DNA of 64,000 nucleotides. Source: Sphingobacteriaceae bacterium. Its GTDB lineage: Bacteria; Bacteroidota; Bacteroidia; Sphingobacteriales; Sphingobacteriaceae. Location: NCBI GenBank assembly GCA_903644075.1, contig CAHJXH010000001.1, positions 1 to 64,000 of the forward strand. The letters run 5' to 3'. Below are positions 31,044-52,872 of the stretch, in pieces. Made by a program: the position numbers and the translations under genes. Within the stretch, counting starts at the first letter, position 1. Each line of letters starts with the position of its first letter. The notes under the pieces are model-generated. The model did no database searches. It saw only the letters and a program-made list of their open reading frames with translations, and was not told the DNA's origin.

Positions 31044-31049
31044 GGTATT

Positions 31050-31091
31050 GGACGCAGGACGAAAAGATTAAGGATAAAAGACAATAAGACG
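31050..31091 (+). repeat. Purine-rich heptad stretch (RRGAYRA type)
   Basis: Six 7-nt units (GGACGCA, GGACGAA, AAGATTA, AGGATAA, AAGACAA, TAAGACG) follow the permease 2 stop codon. Similar stretches are at 28555-28587, 33579-33627, 36069-36142 and 38638-38708, each between a permease stop codon and the GAYAACN array of the next gene. Confidence 0.7.
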
Positions 31092-31109
31092 GTTGAAAAT
31101 GCTAATACT

Positions 31110-31137
31110 AACAACCGGCAACCGGCAACCGACAACT
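31110..31137 (+). repeat. GAYAACN-type heptamer array before permease 3 (4 units)
   Basis: AACAACC, GGCAACC, GGCAACC, GACAACT, then 12 nt to the ATG at 31150. This variant has G in place of A at unit position 2. Confidence 0.85.
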
Positions 31138-31149
31138 AAATTTAGAGTT

Positions 31150-33573: not shown

Positions 33574-33578
33574 TTTTT

Positions 33579-33627
33579 GGACGAAAGATTTTGAGATAAA
33601 AGACGAAGGACAAGAAAAAGATTAGAC
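33579..33627 (+). repeat. Purine-rich heptad stretch
   Basis: Units GGACGAA, AGATTTT, GAGATAA, AAGACGA, AGGACAA, GAAAAAG and ATTAGAC follow the permease 3 stop codon; the 7-nt period is degenerate. Confidence 0.6.
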
Positions 33628-33638
33628 CGAACAGGGCT

Positions 33639-33666
33639 AACAACAGACAACTGATAACCGACAACT
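33639..33666 (+). repeat. GAYAACN heptamer array before permease 4 (4 units)
   Basis: AACAACA, GACAACT, GATAACC, GACAACT, ending 9 nt before the ATG at 33676. The last three units equal those at 50-63 plus a GACAAC unit, showing how similar unlinked copies are. Confidence 0.9.
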
Positions 33667-33675
33667 GAACCAACA

Positions 33676-36063
33676 ATGATTAAAAACTATATAAAAATAG
33701 CCTGGAGAAACCTGGTTAAGCAAAAGCTTTATAGCCTTATTAATATTGGCGGGCTTGCTGTTGGTTTGGCTGTTTGTATGACGATAATGTTGTACGTAGC
33801 CCATGAAATGAGCTATGATACCTTTCATAAGAATGCGAACCGTATTTTTATACCGCACGCCAAATTCACAATTGCCGGTAATACCATGAATATGGATAAT
33901 ATGAGTTATGTATCGGCTCCTATTATCAAACAAAACCAGCCAACGGTAGAAAGCTATATGCGCACATTGGGATATCCACGCCCAGTAATTGTAAGCCCTG
34001 CTGCATCACCGACACATAAATTCTCTGAGAATAACCTGTTGTTTGCTGATCCCAATTTTTTTAAATTCTTTTCTTTTAAGCTTATTTCGGGTAGTGTTAC
34101 AGATGCCCTTAAGAATCCATTCTCTGTGGTTTTATCGCAAGATATGGCTAAAAAATATTTTGGCTCAGAGAATCCTATGGGTAAAACCATTAGTATCAGA
34201 ACAGATACTGTTTGTAATTATATGGTAACAGGTGTTGCCGAAAATAATCCTTCTAACTCGTCAATCAAGTTCAATTTCGTTACGCCCAACTCAAGTTTAC
34301 TAGCCATGAAAGAGGCTCGGGAATATAAAGGCGAACCGCGTTTGGCGCTGGGGTCTTTTAATATCTACCTGCTTTTAAAACATACAGCAGATACTACGGC
34401 TTTAAGAAAAGGACTGCAATTAATGGCCACGAAGGCTAAAGATTTTGATAAGGAGACTTATTCCCTTTCATCAATCACAGACACGCATTTGAAAAATAAT
34501 TTTGACGATCAATCTAAAATAAAATATCTCAAAATATTTCCACTTGTTGCGTTGCTTATATTGGTGTTGGCCCTGGTAAACTACATGAGCCTGTCTACCG
34601 CGCGGGCAACTTTACGAGCCAAAGAGGTTGGAGTACGCAAAGTATCCGGCGCCAGCCGTAAAACTATTGCCACGCAATTTTATGTCGAATCGGCATTGTT
34701 TGCTGTCATCTCCTTTGTATTGGGATACCTGCTTTGTTATGCATTTAAGCCATGGTTTTTAAATGCATTGGAGCTTAAAATTGATAACACATTTTTATAT
34801 AGTCCATTGGTGTTAACCATGCTTGCAGCACTGCTGTTTATTACCGTGTTGGTTGCAGGTAGCTATCCATCATTAGTGTTATCGGCATTTAAACCTGTTG
34901 TTACCTTGAAAGGAAAAATGAGTAAACAAGCGGGTGGGGTAGTTGTGAGAAAAGTTTTTACCACACTACAGTTTACCATTTCGGTTGCGTTAATTATTTG
35001 CGGAATAGTGATTGACCGGCAGCTTTATTATTTAAGGCATGCTGACACAGGTGTAAAGCATGACAATGTGGTTATGATACCAGTTGCCAAAAGTTTCGGG
35101 AAAAACTATCCCTCATTTAAAAGAGATGTTGAGGCATTAGCCGGTATTAGCAGTGTTGCAACAGCACATTATGCTTTGTTTAAAGGCTATGATATGTATT
35201 TTATCAACGGAAAAACTAAAGATGAGAGCTTCGTTTTACCCGCAATGGATGTTGATGAGCATTTTGCAAGTACACTTGGATTAAAGTGGAAATTTAAACC
35301 GATATCTGCAACCGGCAATATCCAAACTGTTATTATTAATGAAGCAGCCATTAAAGGGTTGCATCTTCCGGCCAATCCTGTGGGTACGTATATTACTTCT
35401 GGTCCCGGTAAAAATGAAATAACAGGGGTAGTAAAGAATTTCAATTTCAAATCAATGGAGTTTGCGATAGAGCCATTGGGTTTATACGTAGTGCGCGATA
35501 CGTCATCTTTTTGGCGTATGGCCGGTTGTAATTTGTTTGCCAAAATTAAACCGCATACCAATTTACCTACTATGATCAATACCCTCGAAGGTATTTATAA
35601 AAAGTATGATAAAGACACTCCCTTTAGCTACTCATTTGCCGACGATACTTTTAACGAACAATATAAAGCCGAAGACAGGCTGGCATCTATCTTTAGTATT
35701 TTTACCTGTATAACCGTTATTTTGGCCATTCTTGGTTTGTTTGGGCTTGCTGCCTTTACCATAGAACAGCGCACCAAAGAGATAGGTATCCGCAAGGTTT
35801 TAGGTGCTAGTGTTACCGCCATAACCACATTACTTTCTAAAGATTTCTTAAAACTGGTACTGTTGGCCATTGTAGTTGCTTCGCCCATTGCATGGTGGTG
35901 TATGAACAACTGGCTGCAAGGGTTTGCTTATCGTATTACCATATCGTGGTGGCTGTTTGTGTTGGTAGGGGTGGTAATTGTGCTGCTTACCCAAATTACG
36001 GTTTGCTTAAATGCCATCCGATCGGCAGTGGCCAACCCGGTAAAGAGCCTGAGAAGTGAATGA
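33676..36063 (+). CDS. Permease 4, MacB/FtsX-type ABC exporter subunit
   Basis: 795 residues with the duplicated core/FtsX layout. Coupling motifs are RAKEVGVRKVSGAS (note S for L) and RTKEIGIRKVLGAS; the end is NPVKSLRSE. It is clearly more distant from permeases 2 and 3: the first periplasmic domain has its own sequence (AKFTIAGNTMNMDNMSYVSA) and the second helix pair is Ala/Val/Leu-rich (FTTLQFTISVALIICGIVID). It lies 102 nt after permease 3 in unit 1, again with heptad repeats between. The start is an ATG directly after a heptamer array. Confidence 0.92.
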   Translation: MIKNYIKIAWRNLVKQKLYSLINIGGLAVGLAVCMTIMLYVAHEMSYDTFHKNANRIFIPHAKFTIAGNTMNMDNMSYVSAPIIKQNQPTVESYMRTLGYPRPVIVSPAASPTHKFSENNLLFADPNFFKFFSFKLISGSVTDALKNPFSVVLSQDMAKKYFGSENPMGKTISIRTDTVCNYMVTGVAENNPSNSSIKFNFVTPNSSLLAMKEAREYKGEPRLALGSFNIYLLLKHTADTTALRKGLQLMATKAKDFDKETYSLSSITDTHLKNNFDDQSKIKYLKIFPLVALLILVLALVNYMSLSTARATLRAKEVGVRKVSGASRKTIATQFYVESALFAVISFVLGYLLCYAFKPWFLNALELKIDNTFLYSPLVLTMLAALLFITVLVAGSYPSLVLSAFKPVVTLKGKMSKQAGGVVVRKVFTTLQFTISVALIICGIVIDRQLYYLRHADTGVKHDNVVMIPVAKSFGKNYPSFKRDVEALAGISSVATAHYALFKGYDMYFINGKTKDESFVLPAMDVDEHFASTLGLKWKFKPISATGNIQTVIINEAAIKGLHLPANPVGTYITSGPGKNEITGVVKNFNFKSMEFAIEPLGLYVVRDTSSFWRMAGCNLFAKIKPHTNLPTMINTLEGIYKKYDKDTPFSYSFADDTFNEQYKAEDRLASIFSIFTCITVILAILGLFGLAAFTIEQRTKEIGIRKVLGASVTAITTLLSKDFLKLVLLAIVVASPIAWWCMNNWLQGFAYRITISWWLFVLVGVVIVLLTQITVCLNAIRSAVANPVKSLRSE

Positions 36064-36148
36064 AATTTTAGAAGAAGGATAAAAGATTGAATACGAAAGA
36101 CCAATAACAGATAAAGACCAAAAGATATAAGATAATAAGACTGGCCCC

Positions 36149-36169
36149 CGAAAACTGATAACGGACACC
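36149..36169 (+). repeat. Degenerate heptamer array before permease 5 (3 units)
   Basis: GAAAACT, GATAACG, GACACCC, followed by AAAACTA and then 6 nt to the ATG at 36183. This is the most decayed array of the set. Confidence 0.7.
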
Positions 36170-36182
36170 CAAAACTAAAACG

Positions 36183-38633
36183 ATGTTTAAAAATTATCTA
36201 AAAGTAGCTTTACGAAGCTTGTTGAAGCGCAAAGCTTTTAGCCTGATCAACATTTTGGGCCTGGCCACAGGTATGGCTGTTTGTTTACTCATCGTTTTGT
36301 TTATACAGGACGAGCTGAGTTATGATAAGTTTCAGGACAAAGGTGATCGTATTTATCGAATAGCGCTCGACCGTATTTATCCCGGCAGATCAACTTCATA
36401 TGCTATTATCCCATCTTCAATTGGTGATGCGGCAAAGCGTGAATTCCCGGAGGTTGAGCAATTTACAAGAATGTTTGATGCCGTTGGTAATGGTACCTTC
36501 CCCCTTAAATATGGCGACAAGATTTTTGAGGAAAGAAAAGTGTTATTTGTCGATTCTAACTTTTTCAATGTATTTAGTTACAAAGCACTTGCCGGTAACC
36601 CACTCAGTGCTTTAACTAAAGCCAATAATGTGGTTATTACCGAGAGTACGGCGAAACGTATTTTTGGTTCTGCAGATCAGGCTATAGGCAAACAGTTTTT
36701 GGTTGACCAGAATAATGGTAACCCCAACTTTGTAATCAGCGCTGTTGTACAGGATTGGCCTCAAAACTCACACTTTAAATTTAATATGCTGATATCTGCT
36801 ATCAGCTTTCCGTTTGTCAATCAGCCCAATTATACCGGGTTTTCATGTTACACTTATTTGTTGCTTAAACCAGGTGTTTCGCCTCAGGCAGTGGATGCCA
36901 GAATGCCGCTAATTATCAAGAAATATGTATCGGGTGAAATAGGCCGCGCTTTTGGCGAAACTTATGAGCAGTTTACCGCTGCGGGCAATGGCTACCATTA
37001 CTATCTACAGCCGCTTACTAAGATCCACCTGATCTCAGACCTCGAATCAGAACTCAGCGTAAACGGCAGCATGACTACCATTTACATGTTTAGTGCAATT
37101 GCCATATTTATACTGGTACTGGCTTGTATCAATTTTATCAACTTGTCTACTTCATTATCGGTCGAGCGTGCCAAAGAAGTAGGCATCCGCAAAACCTTTG
37201 GTTCTGATAAGCAATCAATCATTTACCAGTTTTTAACCGAATCTGTTATCATCAGTTTAATGAGTTTGGTTATAGCCTTTGGGATGATACTGCTGCTGTT
37301 GCCGCTGTTTAATCAAATTGCAGATAAAAATCTTTCGGCATTATATTTTATTACGCCGTTACATTTGCTGCTACTCATTGCGTTCGCTATCGTATTGGGC
37401 GGCATCGCGGGCGTGTATCCGGCATTTATTCTGTCGTCATTTAATCCTATCACGGTTTTAAAAGGCAGGTTTAAATCCAATAAATACGGTTTATTTCTGC
37501 GGAATGGCTTAGTGATCTTCCAGTTCAGTATATCTATCGTGCTCATCATAGCTACGATTATTGTAAACCAGCAAATCAATTTTATGCAGGGTGATAAGCT
37601 GGGCTTTAAGAAAGACCATATAATTGTGGTGAATAATGCTGTTGTACTTAATAAACAAACCAGGGCTTTTAAAACTGAATTACTGAAGATACCCGGTGTT
37701 GAGTCGGTAAGCGGCACATCAACTATGCCCGGCGACCAGGGCTTTTTTGGGGTAAGCTTTACGCCCGAAGGTTCTAAACAATCTATAACGGGCCGCGGCA
37801 TTGTGGTTGATGAAAATTTCGCCAAAGTACTGGGCCTGCAAATTAATAAGGGCAGGTTTTTTTCAGAATCGTATCCCACAGATTCGCTCGGGGTAGTACT
37901 TAACGAAAAAGCTGTAAGCGAGATGGGGCTTAAAAACCCAATAGGTGCGCGGCTAACCAGCCCCGGCGATACGCTTAAAAATGGTACTAATGTTATTAAT
38001 ACTGTGATAGGCGTGGTTAAAGATTTCCATTACCAATCCCTGCATCAAAAAATTACGCCGCTGATATTCATCAACAGTAAGCGCAATAATAACATCTATG
38101 GCGCTATAGCTGTAAAAGTAAAGTCTGACCATTTCCAAAACACATTGAACAGCATTCAGCATACCTGGGATAGTTTCGTAAAGGATCATCCCTATCACTA
38201 TAGTTTCCTAGACCAAACCGTGGCCGAGCAATACCATGCCGAGCAAACCACACAAAAAGTATTCAGTGTGTTTACGGTACTGGCTATTTTTATTGCCTGT
38301 ATTGGTTTAATGGGGTTGGCGGCTTATGCAACCCAGCAACGCATCAGGGAGATCGGCATCCGTAAAGTATTGGGCGCATCTATAAGTGGCATTGTAAGCA
38401 TGCTTTCGGTAGATTTCCTGAAACTGATCCTGTTTGCAAGCCTGGTAGCTTTCCCAATAGCTTGGTTTGCTATGTACAGCTGGCTGCAAAACTTTGCTTA
38501 CCGTATTACCATCAACTGGCTGGTATTTATACTGGCAGCAGGTATTTCGATACTGATAGCCATGCTTACTATTAGTTTCCAGGCTATTAAAGCGGCACTA
38601 ATGAACCCGATTAAGAGTTTGAGAAGCGAATAG
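36183..38633 (+). CDS. Permease 5, MacB/FtsX-type ABC exporter subunit
   Basis: 816 residues in the duplicated layout. The first coupling motif is altered to RAKEVGIRKTFGSD, while the second is standard (RIREIGIRKVLGAS, with RIR for RTK). It ends NPIKSLRSE. The first FtsX core reads NLSTSLSVERAKE where the others have ARS/AQS, so this copy has diverged at the ATPase-facing side. It could still work with the common ATPase. Neighbours: permease 4 (119 nt before) and permease 6 (108 nt after). Confidence 0.92.
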   Translation: MFKNYLKVALRSLLKRKAFSLINILGLATGMAVCLLIVLFIQDELSYDKFQDKGDRIYRIALDRIYPGRSTSYAIIPSSIGDAAKREFPEVEQFTRMFDAVGNGTFPLKYGDKIFEERKVLFVDSNFFNVFSYKALAGNPLSALTKANNVVITESTAKRIFGSADQAIGKQFLVDQNNGNPNFVISAVVQDWPQNSHFKFNMLISAISFPFVNQPNYTGFSCYTYLLLKPGVSPQAVDARMPLIIKKYVSGEIGRAFGETYEQFTAAGNGYHYYLQPLTKIHLISDLESELSVNGSMTTIYMFSAIAIFILVLACINFINLSTSLSVERAKEVGIRKTFGSDKQSIIYQFLTESVIISLMSLVIAFGMILLLLPLFNQIADKNLSALYFITPLHLLLLIAFAIVLGGIAGVYPAFILSSFNPITVLKGRFKSNKYGLFLRNGLVIFQFSISIVLIIATIIVNQQINFMQGDKLGFKKDHIIVVNNAVVLNKQTRAFKTELLKIPGVESVSGTSTMPGDQGFFGVSFTPEGSKQSITGRGIVVDENFAKVLGLQINKGRFFSESYPTDSLGVVLNEKAVSEMGLKNPIGARLTSPGDTLKNGTNVINTVIGVVKDFHYQSLHQKITPLIFINSKRNNNIYGAIAVKVKSDHFQNTLNSIQHTWDSFVKDHPYHYSFLDQTVAEQYHAEQTTQKVFSVFTVLAIFIACIGLMGLAAYATQQRIREIGIRKVLGASISGIVSMLSVDFLKLILFASLVAFPIAWFAMYSWLQNFAYRITINWLVFILAAGISILIAMLTISFQAIKAALMNPIKSLRSE

Positions 38634-38710
38634 TTTTTGGAAGAAGGATTGAGGGACAAAAGATAAAGGACTTTACAGGAAGCTGAAAAGAAAAGATAAA
38701 GGACAGGGCT

Positions 38711-38738
38711 GACAACCGACAACTGAAAACTGACAACC
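38711..38738 (+). repeat. GAYAACN heptamer array before permease 6 (4 units)
   Basis: GACAACC, GACAACT, GAAAACT, GACAACC, ending 3 nt before the ATG at 38742. A purine-rich heptad stretch (38638-38708) precedes it. Confidence 0.9.
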
Positions 38739-38741
38739 AAT

Positions 38742-41120
38742 ATGATAAAGAACTATTTTAAAATTGCATGGCGTAAGCTTAAAAAGAACAGACTGTATTC
38801 GTTTGTAAATATATTGGGTTTAACTGCCGGTTTGGCCAGTTGCCTGTTGATAGGTTTATATTTATATAACGAGTTAAGCTACGATAACTTCCATCAGAAT
38901 GCCGACCGTATTGCAAGGCTGACGATGGAGTATAATCATGGTAGTACCACTAAAACTGCCGTTACCGGAACTAAAGAAGGCCCGCAACTGAAAAGAATGT
39001 TCCCCGAGGTTGAAGATTATGTAAGGACTGTAAAGTACGGAGGCATTTTCAATAAGGATGGCAAGATCTTCCGCGAAGCGAACGTATTGTATACCGATCA
39101 GCCTTTCTTTAAGATGTTCTCATTTAACTTGTTAAAAGGCAGCCCGGCAAATGCGCTTTCGGCGCCCGATCGTATTGTGATTACATCGGCCATGGCCAAA
39201 AAATATTTCGGCGATGCAGAACCGATGGGCCAAACATTGAAATTAGATAACAAGGCTTACGTAGTAAGCGGGGTGACCGGAGATCTGCCTCCCAATTCAC
39301 AGATCCGCTTTGATTTTGTGGTACCTTTTACTGTGCTTTCTGCGGCTAAAAACGAAGAATGGTTTACAGCTAATTATGTTACTTATCTGTTGCTGAAAAA
39401 CTCTGGCAATATAAAACCATTGCAAAAGCAAATTAGCACTTATATGCAGCAAGTGAGTGCCGGCGAGCTTAAAATGACCGGTAAAGAGTACCTCACTTTA
39501 AATCTCGAACCATTGAAAAGTGTCCATCTGCATTCGCAATTAGCAGGCCTGGAGCCGAATGGAAACCTCACTTATATTTACATTCTCTTTAGTATTGCGC
39601 TGCTTATCCTTTTTATTGCTGCGGTTAACTATACCAACCTGGCAGTAGCACAATCAGCCGGGCGCAGTGCCGAAATCAGTATCCGCAAAGTGTTGGGTGC
39701 AAGTAGCATGCAATTGTTCAGGCAGTTTATTGGCGAGTCGGTATTTTTTACAACTGTGGCTACTGTGCTTGCCGTATTGGTAGCTTATGCTTTGTTGCCT
39801 CAATTTAATGCCATGGCCGGCAAAAGTTTTACAACCAAAGATTTGCTGAACCCTGTTGTATTAATACTGCTAATGGTTTTGAGTATCGTTATCAGCTTTA
39901 TTGCCGGGGCGTATCCATCGCTATTATTATCTAATGTAAATATCATCAAACTCTTAAAGTCAGGCTTTTCATTTACAGGTAATACATCGTTACGCCAAGC
40001 GCTTATTATTTTTCAGTTTGTTATTTCCTTCTTCCTCATTATATCTACAAGCGTTATTATTCGTCAGCTTAATTATATCCAGACTAAGGATGTAGGCTAT
40101 AACCGTAAAAATGTAATTGTTTTGCCGCTCGATTATACTTTGTATCCAGCCGTTAGTACCCTGAAAACGCAAATGGCTGCCGTACCAAATGTAGAGCAGG
40201 TGAGCGTGGCTAACTCTTCACCGGTTAATGTAGGCTGGGGCGATGGCATTACTACCCACGACGGCAAAAAGGTAATGGTAAACTGTATACCTGCCGATGA
40301 AAACTTTGTATCAATGTTTAAGCTGAAGGTTTTAGCCGGTGCTAATTTTACCCATGCCGATCTGTTGCAAATGGACACCACTAACAACGGTAAAAACTTT
40401 AGGCATACATTTATTATTAACGAATCGACAGCCAAAGCTTTGGGTTGGACACCGGAGGAAGCCATTGGCAAAACCATTAATAAGGGGAATGATGGCATAG
40501 TAAAGGCTGTGGTAAAGGATTTCAATTTTAGATCACTTCACGACCCGATAACACCTTTGGTTATCTTTTTAGACAATAGCAATACCAACGAACTTTTCTT
40601 AAAAGTGGCCGATAAAAATATCCCGCAGGTATTGCGTGATCTGGAAGTGATCTGGAAACATGAGGCTATTAATAACCCATTCTCATACCATTTTCTGGAT
40701 GATGACTACAATGCCATATACGTTTCAGAACAACGTACAGCAGCCATATTTAAAACCTTCGCTATACTTGCCGTTTTATTAGGTTGTTTAGGCTTGTTTG
40801 CGCTTACGGCTTATTCTGTGCTTAACCGCACTAAAGAAATAGGCATCCGTAAGGTATTGGGCGCATCGGTTAGCAGCATCACCTTAATGCTTTCTAAAAA
40901 CTTTATGAAGCTGGTTTTGATAGCTATTATTATAGCTTCGCCAATTGCGTGGTACGCCATGAACAAGTGGTTGCAGGACTTTACTTACCGCATAGATATT
41001 CAATGGTACCTGTTTGTATTGGCCGGTTTGGTAACCATAATTATTGCCTTTGTAACGGTAAGCTTTCAGTCAATTAAGGCTGCGCTGGGCACTCCGGTTA
41101 AGAGTTTGCGAAGTGAATGA
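38742..41120 (+). CDS. Permease 6, MacB/FtsX-type ABC exporter subunit
   Basis: 792 residues, last permease of unit 1. The first coupling motif is the most changed of the set: RSAEISIRKVLGAS with AQSAG before it. The second is RTKEIGIRKVLGAS in the context SVLNRTKE, not the usual AEQRTKE. It ends TPVKSLRSE instead of NP. The helix order and length match the other copies. 112 nt separate it from the DUF4097-like gene, a gap holding a 32-nt near-palindrome rather than heptamers. Confidence 0.92.
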   Translation: MIKNYFKIAWRKLKKNRLYSFVNILGLTAGLASCLLIGLYLYNELSYDNFHQNADRIARLTMEYNHGSTTKTAVTGTKEGPQLKRMFPEVEDYVRTVKYGGIFNKDGKIFREANVLYTDQPFFKMFSFNLLKGSPANALSAPDRIVITSAMAKKYFGDAEPMGQTLKLDNKAYVVSGVTGDLPPNSQIRFDFVVPFTVLSAAKNEEWFTANYVTYLLLKNSGNIKPLQKQISTYMQQVSAGELKMTGKEYLTLNLEPLKSVHLHSQLAGLEPNGNLTYIYILFSIALLILFIAAVNYTNLAVAQSAGRSAEISIRKVLGASSMQLFRQFIGESVFFTTVATVLAVLVAYALLPQFNAMAGKSFTTKDLLNPVVLILLMVLSIVISFIAGAYPSLLLSNVNIIKLLKSGFSFTGNTSLRQALIIFQFVISFFLIISTSVIIRQLNYIQTKDVGYNRKNVIVLPLDYTLYPAVSTLKTQMAAVPNVEQVSVANSSPVNVGWGDGITTHDGKKVMVNCIPADENFVSMFKLKVLAGANFTHADLLQMDTTNNGKNFRHTFIINESTAKALGWTPEEAIGKTINKGNDGIVKAVVKDFNFRSLHDPITPLVIFLDNSNTNELFLKVADKNIPQVLRDLEVIWKHEAINNPFSYHFLDDDYNAIYVSEQRTAAIFKTFAILAVLLGCLGLFALTAYSVLNRTKEIGIRKVLGASVSSITLMLSKNFMKLVLIAIIIASPIAWYAMNKWLQDFTYRIDIQWYLFVLAGLVTIIIAFVTVSFQSIKAALGTPVKSLRSE

Positions 41121-41202
41121 TTATAACTTTATGTAAATCAATAATTTATTAAATAATTAAAACTTTTTATTAACGATTTACGTATGGAATAACCAAAAAA
41201 AT

Positions 41203-41234
41203 ATGTGATATTTGACTTAAGCCAAATATCACAT
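41203..41234 (+). promoter_or_regulatory. Near-perfect 32-nt palindrome covering the start codon
   Basis: Arms ATGTGATATTTG (41203-41214) and CAAATATCACAT (41223-41234) are perfectly complementary, and the spacer continues the pairing around CTTAAG with one mismatch. The right arm contains the AT of the ATG at 41233. As RNA it would bury the start codon; as DNA it could be an operator. Either way it gives this gene control separate from the permeases. Confidence 0.75.
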
Positions 41235-42261
41235 GAAAACTTTAGGCCTCACACTCGTTCTACTATTTATATGCGGCATTTCATTTGCCCAGGTAAACTG
41301 GACTAATGAACCGCTTATACAAAAGAAAATTAAAGGCACTATACGTAATGTTAGTGTTAAAACCTTGTGTGGCAATATATCTGTAATTGGCACTAATGCC
41401 GAGCCCAGTATAGAGGTATATGTTGATGCCATTAACGAGGCTACTTCATCAAAAGCCGAGCTGAAACGTTTTGTTGAACAGGATTACGCCATTGATATGG
41501 TAGTGCGCGATCACCAATTGATGGTTTCTGCCACCTGTAAGTACGGCGATAGCAACTGGAAAAAGGCCGTAAGCATCTCTTTTAAAATATTTGTTCCGCG
41601 TTCTGTTATTTGTGATCTTACTTCAAAAACAGGAAGTGTAAGCCTGGTGAATTTAGATGGTAACCAAACCTTTAACACAAGTGGCTCTGTAAACCTGGAA
41701 AAGATAACCGGGGTAATTAAAGGGCATACCACAAGTGGAGATATTAACGTTTCTAATTCCGGCCCGGATATTGATTTATCGACCATCAGTGGTGATATCA
41801 TAGCCGTAAATTGCCAGGGCAAGGTTAAACTGAAAACCGACCAGGGAGGCATTAACCTAAGCCGCTTAAAAGGGACTATTGATGCCGAAACATTGGCTGG
41901 TAATATCCTATCTGACGAAATAGATGGTACATTTAACACCCAAACCACAGCGGGTGATATTACGCTAAAGCGGATGACGTGCCATTTAACAGCAACTACT
42001 GCATCGGGCACCATTAATGCCGAATTATCAAAAGCTTGTAAATCAATCAAGCTTAATGCCACCGAGGGCGATGCCAATATTATCCTGACATCAAAAGACG
42101 GCTTTAATTTAAACTGCGAGGGCAAATCCATTAGCGGTGATATGCCTAAAAAGTTTTCGGGGACTAATGATGGTAAAAAACTATCAGGAGCCGTGTTTGG
42201 AGGAGGCATACCGGTAGAGGTGCACGCAGCGTCGGGAGAGGTTAAATTTCAATTTATTTAA
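41233..42261 (+). CDS. DUF4097-like exported beta-strand repeat protein (first copy)
   Basis: 342 residues with a signal peptide (1-19, ending SFA). The body is a series of short beta repeats (KTGSVSLVNLDGNQTFNTSGSVNLEKI, then TTSGDINVSNSG and TISGDIIAVNCQG) typical of DUF4097/adhesin-type beta-solenoids. It is probably periplasmic or surface-attached. It ends unit 1 and is followed by a terminator. A second member closes unit 2 (47917-48960) in the equivalent place. A role in binding or sensing near the exporter is inferred from position only. Confidence 0.82.
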   Translation: MKTLGLTLVLLFICGISFAQVNWTNEPLIQKKIKGTIRNVSVKTLCGNISVIGTNAEPSIEVYVDAINEATSSKAELKRFVEQDYAIDMVVRDHQLMVSATCKYGDSNWKKAVSISFKIFVPRSVICDLTSKTGSVSLVNLDGNQTFNTSGSVNLEKITGVIKGHTTSGDINVSNSGPDIDLSTISGDIIAVNCQGKVKLKTDQGGINLSRLKGTIDAETLAGNILSDEIDGTFNTQTTAGDITLKRMTCHLTATTASGTINAELSKACKSIKLNATEGDANIILTSKDGFNLNCEGKSISGDMPKKFSGTNDGKKLSGAVFGGGIPVEVHAASGEVKFQFI

Positions 42262-42283
42262 ACAATCGGTTTGTTTGATATAG

Positions 42284-42315
42284 AAGAGCGGTACTGGTGT
42301 ACGGCTCTTTTTTTA
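42284..42315 (+). terminator. Unit 1 terminator
   Basis: Stem AAGAGC/GCTCTT with an inner GTAC/GTAC stem, followed by TTTTTTT. It lies 23 nt after the stop codon of the first DUF4097-like gene and 36 nt before operator B, so transcription of units 1 and 2 is separated. Confidence 0.85.
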
Positions 42316-42350
42316 TGCCTTGATTTCTATAAATCAATAGCTTACATAGT

Positions 42351-42389
42351 GTATCGAAACCGTACGCACCTTGTTACACAACCGAACAC
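42351..42389 (+). promoter_or_regulatory. Operator B: four GTA-type boxes at 11-bp spacing
   Basis: GTATC, GTACG, GTTAC and GAACA start at 1, 12, 23 and 34 of the site, with CC before boxes 2 and 4. It aligns with operators A and C without gaps. It lies 140 nt upstream of the 88-residue secreted protein gene. Extra GTAC boxes at 42444, 42454 and 42465 continue at 10-11 bp spacing over the promoter itself. Confidence 0.75.
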
Positions 42390-42417
42390 TATTTGATGTT
42401 TTATTGATTTTAATTAT

Positions 42418-42455
42418 TTGATATTCAGCAACTTAATTGTTTGGTACGAATTTGT
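42418..42455 (+). promoter_or_regulatory. Promoter B: IHF-like block and sigma-54-like -24/-12
   Basis: TTGATATTCAGCA starts 67 bp after the first operator box, exactly as in promoter A. ATTCAGCAACTTA (42423-42435) is one mismatch from the IHF consensus. TTGGTACG (42441-42448) and TTTGT (42451-42455) are the candidate -24/-12 elements; the spacing is 1 nt short of the standard. Confidence 0.55.
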
Positions 42456-42490
42456 ACTTAAAATGTACGGTTCAACAAACTTATCGGTAA

Positions 42491-42757
42491 ATGAAAGCAC
42501 TCAAAAATATATTAGCTATTGGCATTTTAGGAATTGCGCTGGTGGCTTCGGCACAAACAACAACCCGTAAAATAGAAAAAGTTAACATCGATAAGCTGAT
42601 TGGCGATGACGGCAAAAGCCTGCATATCAAAATATCGGGCACAAAAGGTGATAAACCCATTAATTTCGAACGGGTATATAACATAAAAGGAATGAGCAAG
42701 CCGCAGGTTGAGGCCATTAAGAAACATGTGTTAGATTCATTGGGGGTTAACAACTAA
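42491..42757 (+). CDS. 88-residue secreted protein, function unknown
   Basis: A signal peptide (residues 1-21, ending VASA before QTTTRK) and a mature part of about 67 residues, lysine-rich and without cysteine (KIEKVNIDKLIGDDGKSLHIKISGTKGDKP). The C-terminal part is helical (SKPQVEAIKKHVLDSL). It is not a lipoprotein. It is the first gene under promoter B and ends 14 nt before permease 7. Position suggests an exporter cofactor, a sensor or a small exported substrate. I do not recognise the family. Confidence 0.75.
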   Translation: MKALKNILAIGILGIALVASAQTTTRKIEKVNIDKLIGDDGKSLHIKISGTKGDKPINFERVYNIKGMSKPQVEAIKKHVLDSLGVNN

Positions 42758-42771
42758 TATAAAACCGAGTT

Positions 42772-45195
42772 ATGTTTAAAAACTATATTAAAACCGCCTG
42801 GCGTAATTTGTGGAAAGGCCGCGTATTTAACGGGATGAACATTGTGGGGCTATCAGTTGCCATAGCTAGTTCTACGCTACTGCTACTTACCGTTTTTTTC
42901 GAATCATCGTACGATGGTTTCCATAAAAACATTGATAATATTTACCAGGTATATTTTACCGTAAGCAGGCAAGGTGCGCCGCAGAAAACAGGGTCGATGC
43001 CTGTGCCGCTGGCTCCAACTTTGAAAGCTGATTACCCCGATGTAAAGTACATCACACGTGTAGCAGGCGGTCCTCCAGCAACCATAACTTACGGCGATAA
43101 GCAAATTCAGCAAGAGGTTTCGTTTGTTGATCCAGATTATTTTAACATATTCACGTTCCCGATCATCAAAGGAAGTAAAACGGCATTATCGGGCCTTAAT
43201 GATGTAGTATTAACCAATGCTTCGGCCAAAGCTATTTTTGGTGATGCCGACCCGATTGGTAAAACTATTGTTGTAAAATACGACGACCAGCCAAAGAGTT
43301 TTATTGTAAGCGGAATTACGGAGGATTATCCGGCCAATTCAAGTTTAGGCTCTGATCTCACAGTCCGCTTTGAGAATTCAGAAAGCTATAATCAATTGCT
43401 AAAAGTTTGGGATTCGCGTACGCATATTGTATATGTGCAATTGAACGCTAATGCCAATCCGGCCAGGTTTGAGCAGGGCTTAAAACCTTTTGTAAAAAAA
43501 TACCTGAAACAAGACCTGGAAGATTTAAAACGCGATGGCGCCAAACCACTGGCCGATGGTGAGCGCGAATCATTAGGCATATTTCCATTTAAAAATAATC
43601 ACTTTAATACTGATATGGGGGCTGTTTACGGTTCGTCAATCAGTAAAACTTATGTAGGTGCTTTGCTGGTAATTGCCATATTTATTCTCATCATTGCCTG
43701 TATTAACTTCGTTAACCTATCTGTAGCACGCTCATTTACACGGGCCCGCGAAATTGGTGTGCGCAAAACATTAGGCGCAGGCAAATGGCAGCTTTTAACA
43801 CAGTTCTGGACAGAAACTGTAATGATTTGCCTGATTGCCCTGGTAGCAGGTATTGGCATCGCTGCATTGGTAATGCCGGGTTTTAAAGCAGCTTTTCAGA
43901 GTGGTATAAAGTTGAGTATGCTTTTACAGCCGCTGCAGTTATTTACCATTATTGGCCTGTTCTTTTTTATCACCATAGCAGCCGGATTTTATCCTGCACT
44001 GCTAATGCTGCGCTATAAAACTACCCAGGTTTTAAAAGGGTCTGTAAATACGCAGAAACCTGGCAAGGTGCGTAATATATTATTGGTGGTACAATTCTCG
44101 CTGGCTACTATATTAACTATTTGTACACTTATTACCTGGCAGCAAATTAGTTACCTGCAAACCAAGCCATTGGGATATAATAAAAATGAGGTAATCAGTA
44201 TCCCGATTGGGAATAGTATAAATGGTTTGCAGGCCTTACAGTTGTTCCGTAACCAAATGGCCGGCGAACCGGGTGTGGTAGGCATTAGTGGCTCTTATAT
44301 TAATTTGGGGAGGGGTAAAGACGGCTCGAGCAGTAACTCTGTCCGTGGGTTTAACTACAAAGGGCATGAGATCCGCACGCATGAACAAACAGTCGATTTT
44401 GATTTTATGAAAACACTGGATATTAAGCTGGCAGTCGGTCGCGATTTTTCGAGAGATTACGTAGCCGATAGCAACAATGTGGTAATAAATGAAAAAATGG
44501 CATCATTGATTGGCAAAGGTAACGTGGTGGGTACCTATCTGCCAATGCGCGATAATGAGCCGCCAATGCAAATAGTAGGTGTGTTTAAAAATTATAACTT
44601 TCAATCGCTGCATGAAGAGGTTGAACCATTGACCTTGACCATGAAAAAGGATTTCCCGATCAGCTATATATTTGTCAGGCTTAAATCAAACAATCTGTTA
44701 AATGATTTCGACAGGGTAAAAGCAAAATGGCATGCGGCTTTCCCTACTATAGAATTTACCGGTTCGTGGCTTACCGAAAATACAGAGAAGCAATACCGGG
44801 CCGAAAAGCGCTTATCTACCATATTTATCAGCGCAGCTATCATTGCTATTATTATTTCTTGTATTGGTTTGCTGGCTATCTCTATTATGGTAATTGTACA
44901 GCGTACCAAGGAGATAGGTATCCGTAAAGTGCTGGGATCGAGTGTATCGAGTATTGTGATACTATTATCTCGCGAATTCGCCAAACTGGTGCTGATTGCA
45001 TCAATAATTGCTTTCCCGGTTGCTTGGTGGGTAATGCATAAGTGGCTGGAAGGTTTTGCGTATCGCATTACTATACAGTGGTGGATTTTTGCCTTATCTG
45101 CTTTAATAGCGTTAACCATTGCTTTACTTACTATCAGTATTCAGGCCGTGAGGGCAGCATTAGCCAACCCGGTTAAGAGCCTGAAAAGCGAATGA
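42772..45195 (+). CDS. Permease 7, MacB/FtsX-type ABC exporter subunit
   Basis: 807 residues in the duplicated layout. Coupling motifs are RAREIGVRKTLGAG and RTKEIGIRKVLGSS, and the end is NPVKSLKSE. Unlike the other seven permeases it has no heptamer array: it starts 14 nt after the 88-residue gene, probably by translational coupling. The N-terminal helix reads NGMNIVGLSVAIASSTLLLL and the periplasmic part has its own sequence. It is the first permease of unit 2. Confidence 0.92.
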   Translation: MFKNYIKTAWRNLWKGRVFNGMNIVGLSVAIASSTLLLLTVFFESSYDGFHKNIDNIYQVYFTVSRQGAPQKTGSMPVPLAPTLKADYPDVKYITRVAGGPPATITYGDKQIQQEVSFVDPDYFNIFTFPIIKGSKTALSGLNDVVLTNASAKAIFGDADPIGKTIVVKYDDQPKSFIVSGITEDYPANSSLGSDLTVRFENSESYNQLLKVWDSRTHIVYVQLNANANPARFEQGLKPFVKKYLKQDLEDLKRDGAKPLADGERESLGIFPFKNNHFNTDMGAVYGSSISKTYVGALLVIAIFILIIACINFVNLSVARSFTRAREIGVRKTLGAGKWQLLTQFWTETVMICLIALVAGIGIAALVMPGFKAAFQSGIKLSMLLQPLQLFTIIGLFFFITIAAGFYPALLMLRYKTTQVLKGSVNTQKPGKVRNILLVVQFSLATILTICTLITWQQISYLQTKPLGYNKNEVISIPIGNSINGLQALQLFRNQMAGEPGVVGISGSYINLGRGKDGSSSNSVRGFNYKGHEIRTHEQTVDFDFMKTLDIKLAVGRDFSRDYVADSNNVVINEKMASLIGKGNVVGTYLPMRDNEPPMQIVGVFKNYNFQSLHEEVEPLTLTMKKDFPISYIFVRLKSNNLLNDFDRVKAKWHAAFPTIEFTGSWLTENTEKQYRAEKRLSTIFISAAIIAIIISCIGLLAISIMVIVQRTKEIGIRKVLGSSVSSIVILLSREFAKLVLIASIIAFPVAWWVMHKWLEGFAYRITIQWWIFALSALIALTIALLTISIQAVRAALANPVKSLKSE

Positions 45196-45204
45196 CGCTA
45201 ATTT

Positions 45205-45230
45205 TGAATGAGTGAGTTGTGAATGAGTGA
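45205..45230 (+). repeat. GAATGAGTGA direct repeats
   Basis: TGAATGAGTGA occurs twice (45205-45215 and 45220-45230). Related tracts are at 28514-28530 and 47793-47806, each shortly after a permease stop codon. Confidence 0.65.
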
Positions 45231-45251
45231 ATTAACCGAGGTGAAAAAACT

Positions 45252-45279
45252 GACAACCGATAACTGACAACCGACAACA
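45252..45279 (+). repeat. GAYAACN heptamer array before permease 8 (4 units)
   Basis: GACAACC, GATAACT, GACAACC, GACAACA, ending 4 nt before the ATG at 45284. Confidence 0.9.
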
Positions 45280-45283
45280 GAAT

Positions 45284-47758
45284 ATGATTAAGAATTACTT
45301 TAAAATAGCCTGGCGTAACCTTACTCGCAATAAGGTAAGCAGCATCATTAATATTAGTGGTTTGGCCATTGGTTTGGCCTGCGTGCTATTCATTGGCATG
45401 TATGTAAAAGACGAGCTGAGCTACGACCGCTTTTTTAAAGATAACGACCATATTTTTCGCGTTAACCTTGACGGTAAAATGGGGAATGAAGAATTTCTGC
45501 TTGGCCATACGCCACCGCCGGTAGGTGCTGCGTTAAAAAGTAATTTTTCTGAGGTTGAAAGTTATGCACGAATCTACAAGCCTAACAACGAGATAATTTA
45601 TTTCGAAAGTAACGGTCAGAAGAAATCGCTGACTGAGAAGAATCTGCTGGCGGTTGATTCTAATTTTCTGCAGGTATTGAATTATCCATTAGTAGCTGGC
45701 GACGCTGCAACATGTTTAAGCGGAGTAAATTCGGTGGTTTTGACTGAACGTGCGGCTAAAAAATATTTTGGTGATGCATCGCCAATCGGCAAGACTTTGG
45801 TGTTTGATGAATATGCAAAACCGTTTACCGTTACTGCGGTATTAAAAGATATTCCGGCGCAGTCATCATTACAGTTCGATATGCTTCAGTCTACCGAAAG
45901 TATCCCGCCTGTAAAGCATTTTAACTGGAGCTGGGTATGGCTGCAAATGGGTACTTATGTAAAACTCAAGCCCAACGTTGCTGTAGATGTCGCCAGCATG
46001 AAACGATTAGAAAGTAAGTTCCCTGCTATGGTAAACCAACAGGCTGCCAGTGCATTTAAACGCATTGGCCAACCTTGGGACGAGTTTAAAAAGAAAGGCG
46101 GCCATTGGGATTTGCACCTGCAACCTATTGCAGATTTGCACCTGCGCTCTGTTAACGTTGGCACCCGTTATTTCAACCAGAGCGATATTAAGTATGTGTA
46201 CATATTTTCGGCTATTGCTTTGTTTATTATTTTGCTGGCCTGTATCAACTTCATGAACCTGTCTACCGCACAGGCCGCGCGCAGGGCTAAAGAAGTGGGC
46301 ATCCGGAAGGTGCTGGGTTCGGCACGTAAACAGTTGATTGGTCAGTTTATGGCTGAGGCTTTTTTATATTGCTTGTTTTCCGCTTTTGTTGCCGTAGTTA
46401 TCGTGGCTTTGGCCTTGCCTGCGTTTAATCAACTGTCTGAAAAATGCCTGAGCATAAATGTGTTGTTCAGTATTGAAGCAATTGCAGGCATCGGCGCTTT
46501 GGTTGTGATTACTGCCTTATTGGCCGGTAGCTACCCCGCGTTTTTCCTCACTTCGTTAAAACCGGTGAGCATTTTAAAAGGCAGTGGGATTTTTAAAGAT
46601 TCGAGCGGGTTTTTAATGCGGAATGCTTTGGTTATATTTCAATTTACGGTTTCAACAGTGCTTATTATTTGTACGCTTATTGTATACAAGCAACTGAATT
46701 ATACCCAAACTAAAGACCTTGGCTTTAATAAAGAAAACGTATTAATTATCCAGAATGCAGAGCGTTTGGGCCAGAGCGAAGAAAGCCTTCGCCAGGAGTT
46801 GCTGCGTTTACCCGAAATAAGCAATGCCACAATTGCAACCGGCATACCTACCCAAAACAAATTTGCCGATACCTATATCCCCGAACTGGAACCCGGTAAT
46901 ACTAAAAGCGGCGAGAATAACATACTGCTTGCTTCATTTATTGTAGACGAAGCCTTTGCACCAACCCTGGGACTGAAAATGGCGAACGGCCGTAATTTCT
47001 CCAAAGAATTTGCCGACTCTGCTTCGGTTGTTATCAACGAAGCAGCTGCTAAGCAGATTGGCTGGAAAAATCCAATCGGTAAAACCATGACCTATCCGGG
47101 AGGCAACAACCAGCAATTTAAAGTGGTGGGTGTGGTGAAAGATTTTAACGTAGAATCGCTGCATCAGTCTGTACCTCCGTTTGCTTTATTTTATAAAACA
47201 TCCAAAACTTATAGCTCATATACCTCATACATTACAGTGAGGATAAAACCCGGCGATTATGCCGCTACCATTGCAGCCATACAAACCAAATGGAAATCGT
47301 TTATGCCCGATACGCCGTTCGAGTACAGTTTTCTCGATGCCGAATTTGATTCGCTTTATCGTGCCGATCAAACGATAGGGAAGGTGTTCAGCGTGTTTAC
47401 CTTCCTATCGTTAACCGTGGCTTGTTTAGGCTTATTAGGATTGGCTATTTATACCGCGCAACGCCGTACCAAAGAGATTGGCATCCGCAAGGTACTGGGC
47501 GCATCTATTGAAAACGTAGTGACCATGCTTTCTAAAGATTTCCTGAAACTGGTTATTGCAGCCTCCATAATTTCATTCCCAATAGCCTGGTATGCCATGG
47601 ACAAATGGCTGCAGGATTTTGCCTACCGCACGCCGGTAAGCTGGTGGATATTTTCATTGGCAGCTGGTATAACGCTTGTTATAGCGTTGGCAACAATTAG
47701 TTTTCAATCTATTAAAGCAGCGCTAACAAATCCAATTAATAGCCTGAGAAATGAATGA
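45284..47758 (+). CDS. Permease 8, MacB/FtsX-type ABC exporter subunit
   Basis: 824 residues, the longest copy. Coupling motifs are RAKEVGIRKVLGSA and RTKEIGIRKVLGAS in the context TAQRRTKE; the end is NPINSLRNE. Its first FtsX region (NLSTAQAARRAKEVGI) and the DTIPELEPGNTKSGENN-like periplasmic insert set it apart. It completes the permease pair of unit 2 and is followed by the second DUF4097-like gene after 158 nt. Confidence 0.92.
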   Translation: MIKNYFKIAWRNLTRNKVSSIINISGLAIGLACVLFIGMYVKDELSYDRFFKDNDHIFRVNLDGKMGNEEFLLGHTPPPVGAALKSNFSEVESYARIYKPNNEIIYFESNGQKKSLTEKNLLAVDSNFLQVLNYPLVAGDAATCLSGVNSVVLTERAAKKYFGDASPIGKTLVFDEYAKPFTVTAVLKDIPAQSSLQFDMLQSTESIPPVKHFNWSWVWLQMGTYVKLKPNVAVDVASMKRLESKFPAMVNQQAASAFKRIGQPWDEFKKKGGHWDLHLQPIADLHLRSVNVGTRYFNQSDIKYVYIFSAIALFIILLACINFMNLSTAQAARRAKEVGIRKVLGSARKQLIGQFMAEAFLYCLFSAFVAVVIVALALPAFNQLSEKCLSINVLFSIEAIAGIGALVVITALLAGSYPAFFLTSLKPVSILKGSGIFKDSSGFLMRNALVIFQFTVSTVLIICTLIVYKQLNYTQTKDLGFNKENVLIIQNAERLGQSEESLRQELLRLPEISNATIATGIPTQNKFADTYIPELEPGNTKSGENNILLASFIVDEAFAPTLGLKMANGRNFSKEFADSASVVINEAAAKQIGWKNPIGKTMTYPGGNNQQFKVVGVVKDFNVESLHQSVPPFALFYKTSKTYSSYTSYITVRIKPGDYAATIAAIQTKWKSFMPDTPFEYSFLDAEFDSLYRADQTIGKVFSVFTFLSLTVACLGLLGLAIYTAQRRTKEIGIRKVLGASIENVVTMLSKDFLKLVIAASIISFPIAWYAMDKWLQDFAYRTPVSWWIFSLAAGITLVIALATISFQSIKAALTNPINSLRNE

Positions 47759-47916
47759 TAGTTTCGAGTTGGTGAGTAGCTAGTCTCGGGTTTGAATGAG
47801 TGAGTTCTGAATTTTATCTCACACTCACTAACACATTCAAAACTTAAAATTATTTTCCTCCCGATGCAACTATTCTAAAAATAAGTGCGTCTCATTAAAT
47901 AACAAACTCAACATTT

Positions 47917-48960
47917 ATGAAAATTAACCTTATTTTAACAATGCTTTGCCTGGGCAGTAGTGTTGCAATGGCCCAAAATGATAATAAAACTCCCTTTTTA
48001 ACTAAGTCGCTGTCAAGCTATGGTATTAAACAAGCCTTTGTAAATACTTCTGGCGGTAGTATTGAGGTAAGCGGGGTTACCGATGGTTCGGCACGTGTAG
48101 AGGTTTACGTAACAAATAATCATGGTGAGACCTTAAGCAAAGAGGAAGCTCAAAAACGTATTGAAAAAGATTATACCCTTGATGTTGATGTACACGATGG
48201 AGAAGTACACGCCACTGCAAAATCTAAAAGACAAAGTAATTGGAGCTGGAATGGCAACAATAACATCAGTATATCTTTTAAAGTATATGTGCCTGTAAAA
48301 ACAGGAACCAATTTAAATACCAGTGGCGGCAGCATCCACTTAGATAATTTATCGGGCAACGAAAAATTTGAAACCAGCGGCGGTAGCCTGCACGTTGACC
48401 ACTTAGCCGGCGTTATTAAAGGCGAAACCAGTGGCGGCAGTATCCACGTTTCAAATTCAAAAGATAATATTGACCTGCAAACCAGCGGTGGCAGTATTTC
48501 GGCAGATAATTGCCAGGGCACTATCCGTTTAGAAACCAGCGGCGGCTCTTTAAATCTAACCCGTCTAAGTGGTAGCATTAAAGCCAATACCAGCGGTGGC
48601 AGCATTCATGGCGACGATATAGGCGGCGAGTTGATTACCGGTACATCGGGCGGCAGCATTAACCTAACCGGTATTAACGGTAGCCTTGATGCATCAACAA
48701 GCGCGGGCAGCTTACATGCACAATTTAAACAAGTTGGTAAATATGTTAAGTTGGATGTAAGCTCGGGCCATATCGATTTGATATTGCCGGAGAAACAAGC
48801 GCTTAACCTCGACATTAGGGCAGGTAGTATTACAAAAAGCCAGTTAAATAATTTTAATGGTGATGTAGATAAAGAACACATCCGTGGTTCTATCAACGGT
48901 GGTGGTGCCGTAGTACGTGCCGATGCAGGCAGCGGCCGTGTAAACCTCTCGTTCAATTAA
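47917..48960 (+). CDS. DUF4097-like beta-solenoid protein with TSGGS repeats (second copy)
   Basis: 347 residues with a signal peptide (1-19, ending AMA). Residues about 38-270 contain about ten repeats of some 20 residues built on TSGGSI or TSGGSL (for example ETSGGSLHVDHLAG, QTSGGSISADNCQG, NTSGGSIHGDDIGG), a very regular right-handed beta-solenoid pattern. The last repeats lose the motif (STSAGS, VSSGH). It is probably periplasmic or on the cell surface. It ends unit 2, next to a strong terminator. Repeats match the DUF4097 adhesin-like family; the binding partner is unknown. Confidence 0.87.
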   Translation: MKINLILTMLCLGSSVAMAQNDNKTPFLTKSLSSYGIKQAFVNTSGGSIEVSGVTDGSARVEVYVTNNHGETLSKEEAQKRIEKDYTLDVDVHDGEVHATAKSKRQSNWSWNGNNNISISFKVYVPVKTGTNLNTSGGSIHLDNLSGNEKFETSGGSLHVDHLAGVIKGETSGGSIHVSNSKDNIDLQTSGGSISADNCQGTIRLETSGGSLNLTRLSGSIKANTSGGSIHGDDIGGELITGTSGGSINLTGINGSLDASTSAGSLHAQFKQVGKYVKLDVSSGHIDLILPEKQALNLDIRAGSITKSQLNNFNGDVDKEHIRGSINGGGAVVRADAGSGRVNLSFN

Positions 48961-48990
48961 TAAGTATAATATAAGTGTGATTGATAGTGG

Positions 48991-49025
48991 AAGCAGGCCG
49001 GGTATTTACCCGGCCTGCTTTTTTT
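48991..49025 (+). terminator. Unit 2 terminator
   Basis: A perfect 12-bp stem AAGCAGGCCGGG / CCCGGCCTGCTT with a 6-nt loop and a T tract. It is 30 nt after the DUF4097-like stop codon and 36 nt before operator C. Confidence 0.95.
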
Positions 49026-49061
49026 GTGCAATTAGCTGTAAGCATATTTCTACCGAAAATT

Positions 49062-49100
49062 GTATCATTACCGTACGCACCGTGTTACGCTACCGTACAG
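49062..49100 (+). promoter_or_regulatory. Operator C: four GTA-type boxes at 11-bp spacing
   Basis: GTATC, GTACG, GTTAC and GTACA start at 1, 12, 23 and 34. Boxes 2 and 4 read ACCGTAC. It aligns ungapped with operators A and B; 20 consecutive positions from the second box differ from B at only a few bases. It lies 161 nt upstream of the second ATPase start. Confidence 0.75.
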
Positions 49101-52395: not shown

Positions 52396-52872
52396 TTAGG
52401 GTATAAGGCACAGCCTTTTGGCCATTTCAACAGCTTGAGTGCGGCGTTTTACTTCCATCTTTTCAAACAACTTTGCCGAATGCGTTTTAATGGTATTTAA
52501 TGACACAAATAAGCGGTCGGATATTTCCTGATTGCTTAAGCCATCGGCCATTAATTGTAAAACCTCTAGTTCACGCTTGCTTAGATTTAGCCGGTCTAGT
52601 TCATTTTTGTTGACGGAAAATTCATCCAAAGTATTTCCAATGTAAACCTGCTTTTCAACCACTACGGTTTTTACTTTAGGTTTGGTAAGTTTAAGTGCCA
52701 GCCATATGCCCAATGCGGTGAAAAATATAGCTATGGCACCTGCATAAGCTTCGAAAGCATAATCAACCAATATCAATCGGTACTCCAGCCATTTTAATAG
52801 CAGTAATAGCACAGCCAATGCCGTTCCATACAGTAAGAGGTGTTTATTTTTTACCAATATATTGGCGGGCAT
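52396..52872 (-). CDS. Membrane-anchored LuxR-type helix-turn-helix regulator
   Basis: 158 residues. Two membrane helices (about 10-30 and 34-62) are followed by a linker and a LuxR DNA-binding domain (about 95-158) with the canonical KRELEVLQLMADGLSNQEIS and VSLNTIKTHSAKLFEKM. There is no receiver. Such membrane-tethered LuxR proteins are seen in Bacteroidota and may act on the nearby membrane gene 121 nt away. The target is unknown. Confidence 0.88.
   Translation of the reverse strand: MPANILVKNKHLLLYGTALAVLLLLLKWLEYRLILVDYAFEAYAGAIAIFFTALGIWLALKLTKPKVKTVVVEKQVYIGNTLDEFSVNKNELDRLNLSKRELEVLQLMADGLSNQEISDRLFVSLNTIKTHSAKLFEKMEVKRRTQAVEMAKRLCLIP

Follow-up and report, generated by a model that had tools for sequence, protein, structure and literature searches.

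The DUF4097 gene D41 and the palindrome over its start codon

The stretch of DNA analysed here (the window, 64,000 nucleotides) belongs to a genome of 4.67 Mb in 346 contigs, estimated as 86% complete, and carries on its + strand a DUF4097 (Toastrack) gene, D41, at positions 41233–42261 (342 amino acids; Pfam PF13349, E 1.4e-16). Its N-terminus looks by eye like a signal peptide and an ATG at this position is shared by all five orthologues in the alignment, so the start of D41 appears secure. Toastrack proteins have been described near ABC transporters (PMC11237479), and D41 likewise lies in an ABC transporter neighbourhood; an intracellular domain is predicted there, in contrast to the signal-peptide-like N-terminus of D41. 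Directly upstream lies an FtsX/MacB-type ABC permease gene (38742–41120, + strand; Pfam MacB_PCD and FtsX), a possible source of read-through, and a coarse scan reported no + strand terminator-like site in 41050–41350, between the two genes. A long + strand row of permease genes, of FtsX/MacB type where scanned, precedes D41. Behind the gene, a terminator-like hairpin followed by a T run is located at 42282–42311 on the + strand (−16.5 kcal/mol, z −5.07 for 42276–42318; absent from the list of a simple terminator scan), and D41 therefore probably closes its unit, as a preliminary description of this DNA had proposed. Farther downstream are a second DUF4097 gene, D47 (47917), an ABC ATPase gene (49217) and an outer membrane efflux gene (49833). 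Over 26145–47758 the row of FtsX/MacB-type permease genes is broken up by DUF4097 genes, and a perfect 14-bp G+C-rich hairpin with a T run, by eye a typical terminator, stands right after D47 at 48991–49020. The literature listed for DUF4097 with FtsX or Bacteroidetes, or with ECF motifs, showed nothing on this locus.

The start of D41 is spanned by a near-perfect palindrome of 32 bases at 41203–41234, ATGTGATATTTG-ACTTAAGC-CAAATATCACAT. Its left arm (41203–41214) and right arm (41223–41234) pair at all 12 positions and enclose an 8-nucleotide spacer (41215–41222), to which CTT and AAG contribute further pairs, giving a full symmetry of 15/16 with a single mismatched pair. The start codon (41233–41235) sits at the outer edge of the right arm, with its A and T inside the arm, and its G could form a G–U wobble with U41202. 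The perfect 12-nucleotide arms, the extra pairing in the spacer, the ATG in the right arm and the AT-rich DNA ahead of the palindrome, all given in the preliminary description, are thus visible in the sequence. The left arm also holds a start-stop, ATG-TGA (41203–41208), which follows an A-tract and is in frame with the D41 start, 30 nucleotides upstream of it; none of the other five D41 leaders shows ATG-TGA at that place in the alignment. A ribosome at this start-stop might melt the stem.

The palindrome is beyond what shuffled sequence gives (32-bp palindromes of at least 15/16: one in the window, none in 200 dinucleotide-shuffled windows; hairpins with arms of at least 12 and loops of 0–10: three in the window, against an average of 0.035 over 200 shuffled windows, of which 7 had at least one). 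Unlike the shuffles, however, the genome itself is not short of such hairpins: a sample of 464 kb, made up of the window and 20 stretches of 20 kb, contained 26 hairpins with arms of at least 12 and five 32-bp palindromes of at least 15/16, that of D41 included. The hairpin is ordinary in kind. As to position, 31 of the 39 perfect hairpins with arms of at least 11 in the 464 kb were intergenic, many of them resembling terminators by eye, 5 lay within ORFs and 2 over stops, and the D41 hairpin was the only one over a start (347 predicted ORFs). A repeat or mobile origin was rejected, since the 131-nucleotide region matched nothing else in the genome at E ≤ 0.001 (both matches were the region itself and its own reverse strand) and matches to the arm in the window were at chance level (11, counting both own arms, against 9.96 expected).

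The left half of the palindrome is conserved and resembles a promoter

Orthologues of D41 were searched in 149 Mucilaginibacter genomes at E ≤ 1e-75 and in a family sample of 399 genomes, drawn from a larger group, at E ≤ 1e-70. The gene is present in 6 of the 149 genus genomes, source included, with identities of 62–91% for the five orthologues (G100 91%, G127 83%, G016 76%, G227 62%, G218 62%). The family sample returned the same six genes and only two additional matches at 42–43%, both of which have ahead of them the promoter-like element common to most other DUF4097 genes. Permease genes were seen around all five orthologues (20 kb read around each), and D47 and the ABC ATPase lie downstream in four of the five loci, the stretch from G127 ending before that point. 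Which permease lies immediately upstream varies among the orthologous loci; the set of permeases changes from one locus to another around a DUF4097 gene that remains in place.

Alignment of the six leaders revealed a conserved element consisting of an A-tract and ATnnGATATTTG (41193–41214, + strand), whose mean pairwise identity was 0.69 (columns 24–45), compared with 0.42 upstream of it and 0.47 onward to the ATG. It is kept although the adjoining permease differs (G016, G227). The 3′ part of this element, GATATTTG (41207–41214, in the left arm), is exact in G000, G100, G127 and G016, and reads TGTATTTTG in G227 and GATATTTA in G218. It resembles the Bacteroidota −7 box, for which the consensus TAnnTTTG with a nearly invariant T-12 is given for F. 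johnsoniae (PMC6847099) and a location at −12 to −5 is reported (PMC9723704). A-11, the spacing and TTTG agree with a sigma-A promoter of this kind, whereas position −12 is G in the source genome and in four of the five relatives, so that TAnnTTTG itself is not matched, and the −33 element of D41 is not convincing. If the −7-like box is used, transcription would be expected to start at about 41219, in the spacer, and the predicted leader of about 14 nucleotides would be shorter than the median of 24 reported for F. psychrophilum (PMC9723704). Upstream of genes in the genus sample, TAnnTTTG was strand-biased (78 vs 46 of 287 regions) whereas GAnnTTTG was not (27 vs 28 of 287 regions); exact GATATTTG occurred in 6 vs 2 regions by strand, a set that includes the D41 leaders themselves. 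Because of the deviation at T-12 and the lack of strand bias of GAnnTTTG, we call GATATTTG only a candidate promoter, a role suggested by the A-tract and left arm, which look more like promoter sequence. A scan of 41050–41350 for E. coli-type promoters gave no site, and the extended left element at up to 3 mismatches had 5 sites in its own genome vs 3 control sites, with no sign of a regulon.

Most of the other DUF4097 genes read in the genus have a different upstream element. TGCAAC (or TGTAAC)-N17-18-GTC was observed about 50–150 nucleotides before the matched stretch in 23 of 30 other DUF4097 loci, and on the reverse strand in none of the 30. It looks like an ECF-sigma promoter, is present before D47 in the window (47865–47895) and is absent before D41; genome-wide at 1 mismatch it was not above control (17 vs 22). 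The promoter-like element of D41 is thus separate from that before most of the paralogues examined.

The right arm was found in one genome only and overlaps an exact reverse complement of the left element of two relatives

Neither the right arm nor the pairing is kept in any of the five orthologues. The exact palindrome core was found in 1 of 199 genomes, the source genome alone, and the core with spacings of 2–16 in 1 of the 6 genomes having D41. Local alignment of the left element with the reverse complement of the stretch that follows it scored 12 in the source genome (p 0.001) and 3 to 5 in the orthologues (p 0.22 to 0.99, n = 5), and a search for the best dyad in each leader gave p 0.003 in the source genome and 0.13 to 0.79 in three other leaders. 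The leaders of G100 and G127 contain, upstream of the start and in the region matching 41187–41213, a different stem of 9 pairs, AAATAACCRA/TYGGATATTT, with one paired difference between the two (G-C to A-T); it is broken in the source genome. The best-dyad p for this stem was 0.01 in G100 and 0.07 in G127, and as a conserved RNA stem it was rejected, not being above shuffles (219/500).

Comparison with the relatives points to how the right arm may have arisen. AAGCC-AAATA-TCACATG in the source genome corresponds to AAGCC-CACAG-TCACATG in G100, the two differing in a patch of 5 nucleotides, and AGCCAAATATC (41220–41230) is the exact 11-nucleotide reverse complement of GATATTTGGCT in G100 and G016; only 1 of the 1024 possible fillings of the 5-nucleotide gap yields this 11/11 match. 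The left arm is followed by ACT in the source genome vs GCT in G100 and G016, and the one mismatch of the palindrome would be accounted for by copying from the left element in its older form. Template switching during replication is reported to create RNA hairpins, with perfect stems made in one event (PMC8794818). The D41 hairpin shares with these an arm that is the reverse complement of neighbouring sequence and a clustering of changes, with G100 and G016 standing in for the ancestor. It differs in that this ancestor is represented by living relatives instead of a reconstruction on a tree, and in that two changes in the left arm, TCGGA to TGTGA (CG to GT), fall outside a single switch and need another event. 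G127 has CCAATTCAC, and few relatives inform the ancestral state; given CCAATTCAC, it is possible that a partly symmetric ancestor decayed elsewhere. Taking the direction of mutation that we infer from these relatives, the right arm most likely stems from a replication template switch that copied the left element.

Predicted folding and access to the start codon

The minimum free energy predicted for the RNA of 41190–41250 is −14.4 kcal/mol (z −4.6), a value that none of 200 shuffles reached, and the same hairpin folded as DNA gives −9.5 (z −4.45). In a read-through RNA with 100 nucleotides of upstream sequence, opening of −12 to +9 costs 12.4 kcal/mol, which ranks D41 tenth among 342 predicted starts (mean 5.5, sd 3.0, nine exceeding D41), while with a transcript starting at −14 the cost is 2.1 kcal/mol. 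For the other five orthologues, the cost is 2.9 to 10.7 in the read-through form and 1.5 to 5.5 kcal/mol in the short form. The start regions of G218 (10.7) and G227 (8.4) are costly in read-through RNA without the hairpin of D41, and G127 is reversed, its short form (5.5) costing more than its long form (2.9). By plain fold energy, the D41 start ranks 13th of 345 predicted starts, 12 of which fold more stably, and a paired AUG as such is not rare, being fully paired to upstream sequence in 64 of the 345; each of these starts was taken as the first ATG of a long ORF, so that some are wrong. In F. johnsoniae, translation is reported to be tuned by the structure of the start region, in messages without Shine-Dalgarno sequences (PMC6847099), so a stem at the start codon should matter.

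The block of translation by RNA that the preliminary description had suggested is energetically sound for read-through RNA from the FtsX gene, given the opening cost above and the result of the terminator scan between the genes. As a control device it is not established for D41, since the pairing is conserved in 0 of 5 orthologues. Start-sequestering hairpins are described for the T4 genes e (lysozyme), soc, 49 and I-TevI (PMC3014915). In the T4 work, a long early RNA of gene e hides the start, a short late RNA without the 5′ stem strand does not, and the promoter lies in the 5′ strand of the structure, where the D41 counterpart would be the conserved −7-like GATATTTG with its one deviation. 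The D41 start codon is similarly predicted to lie in a stable helix of read-through RNA; D41 differs in having a promoter that is a candidate and a stem that is not conserved in relatives. By analogy, the D41 hairpin would follow the logic of T4 gene e, as a putative member of that group.

Interpretation of the hairpin

The palindrome is real, is found in one genome and probably has a mutational origin, and for its consequence a damper of read-through and a neutral by-product are both plausible. The account that we tentatively prefer is that of a genome-private hairpin, born by template switching on a conserved promoter-like element, which acts as a passive damper of read-through. Replication would briefly have copied the neighbouring left element as its reverse complement, replacing about 5 bases and leaving a near-perfect stem whose end falls, by chance, on the start codon. 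In putative read-through RNA from the FtsX gene, this stem would hide the start codon and damp translation of DUF4097. In RNA from the element itself, if it is a promoter, the left arm would lie upstream of the start point, no stem would form and translation would be free. The expected effect of the hairpin is passive in both cases.

It may instead be that the palindrome left by the template switch has no regulatory role, the cell tolerating it either because D41 mRNA mostly begins within it or because the gene is hardly required, and we regard this as a serious possibility. The presence of the palindrome in a single genome and the exact match of the patch agree with it, as does the reported ability of template switching to make perfect stems in one event (PMC8794818), and fixation would require no selection. 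Against this, access to the start in read-through RNA is predicted to change strongly, and some effect is expected if such RNA exists.

A DNA operator, with the 32-bp palindrome spanning promoter and start codon as the binding site of a dimeric repressor, is improbable. The long and nearly perfect two-fold symmetry overlapping the promoter-like element would suit the operator for a local promoter that the preliminary description had offered as an alternative, but the symmetry is absent in the five orthologues though the left half is conserved, and the source genome has no second exact core site at spacings of 2–16. At spacing 8 with up to 2 mismatches, it has 6 sites (that of D41 included) vs 4 in the control, and a palindrome regulon was rejected from the same search in six genomes (sites/controls 6/4, 3/4, 6/4, 10/7, 1/5 and 6/6). 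Half-sites are thus neither both conserved nor repeated elsewhere. No DNA-binding domain was found in the scanned genes of the permease row (the permease-like ORFs at 31093, 33676, 36183 and 45284 lay outside the scan), and the nearest DNA-binding gene seen, of LuxR/GerE type, is about 11 kb downstream on the minus strand (52396–52869). The operator proposal therefore finds no support.

An intrinsic terminator on the minus strand (the stem followed by ATTTTTTT) for antisense DUF4097 RNA, or a bidirectional terminator of the FtsX unit, is very improbable. A terminator scan does report the palindrome on the minus strand, as the strongest stem in 30500–49100; however, G-C pairs make up only 3 of the 12 in the arms, the stem is followed on the + strand by GAAAAC and a T run is found on the minus strand only, the whole scan yields 20 sites vs 19.1 in shuffles, the only putative minus-strand ORFs there lie opposite D41, and relatives that lack the hairpin still have the A-tract from which the T run derives. 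Equally remote is a conserved, regulated hairpin of riboswitch or thermosensor type controlling DUF4097: the AUG is paired in a moderately stable stem, but the window has no Rfam match at gathering scores, the orthologues are predicted to fold differently from one another (a weaker stem that likewise reaches the start codon, −8.0 kcal/mol, z −0.84, is seen in G227 alone), and counting the pairs of the D41 hairpin across the six orthologues gave 64.3% of cells paired, with 317 of 500 shuffles as high and no covariation above shuffles, the excess over slid versions (31–48%) being expected for a structure taken from one alignment row.

Returning to the passive damper, a bolder form of it, which we consider unlikely, is a read-through filter born in essentially one mutation, in which a template switch copied the gene's own promoter element onto its start codon, transcripts begun at that promoter would be the only ones open to translation, and RNA entering from the operon upstream would be silenced. 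If this were true, a single step could suffice for many genes to acquire translation tied to one promoter. If the more modest inference holds, D41 would be a small example of how one lineage can gain a translation-blocking hairpin out of a promoter-like element already present, and of why start-codon hairpins need comparative checks before being called regulatory.
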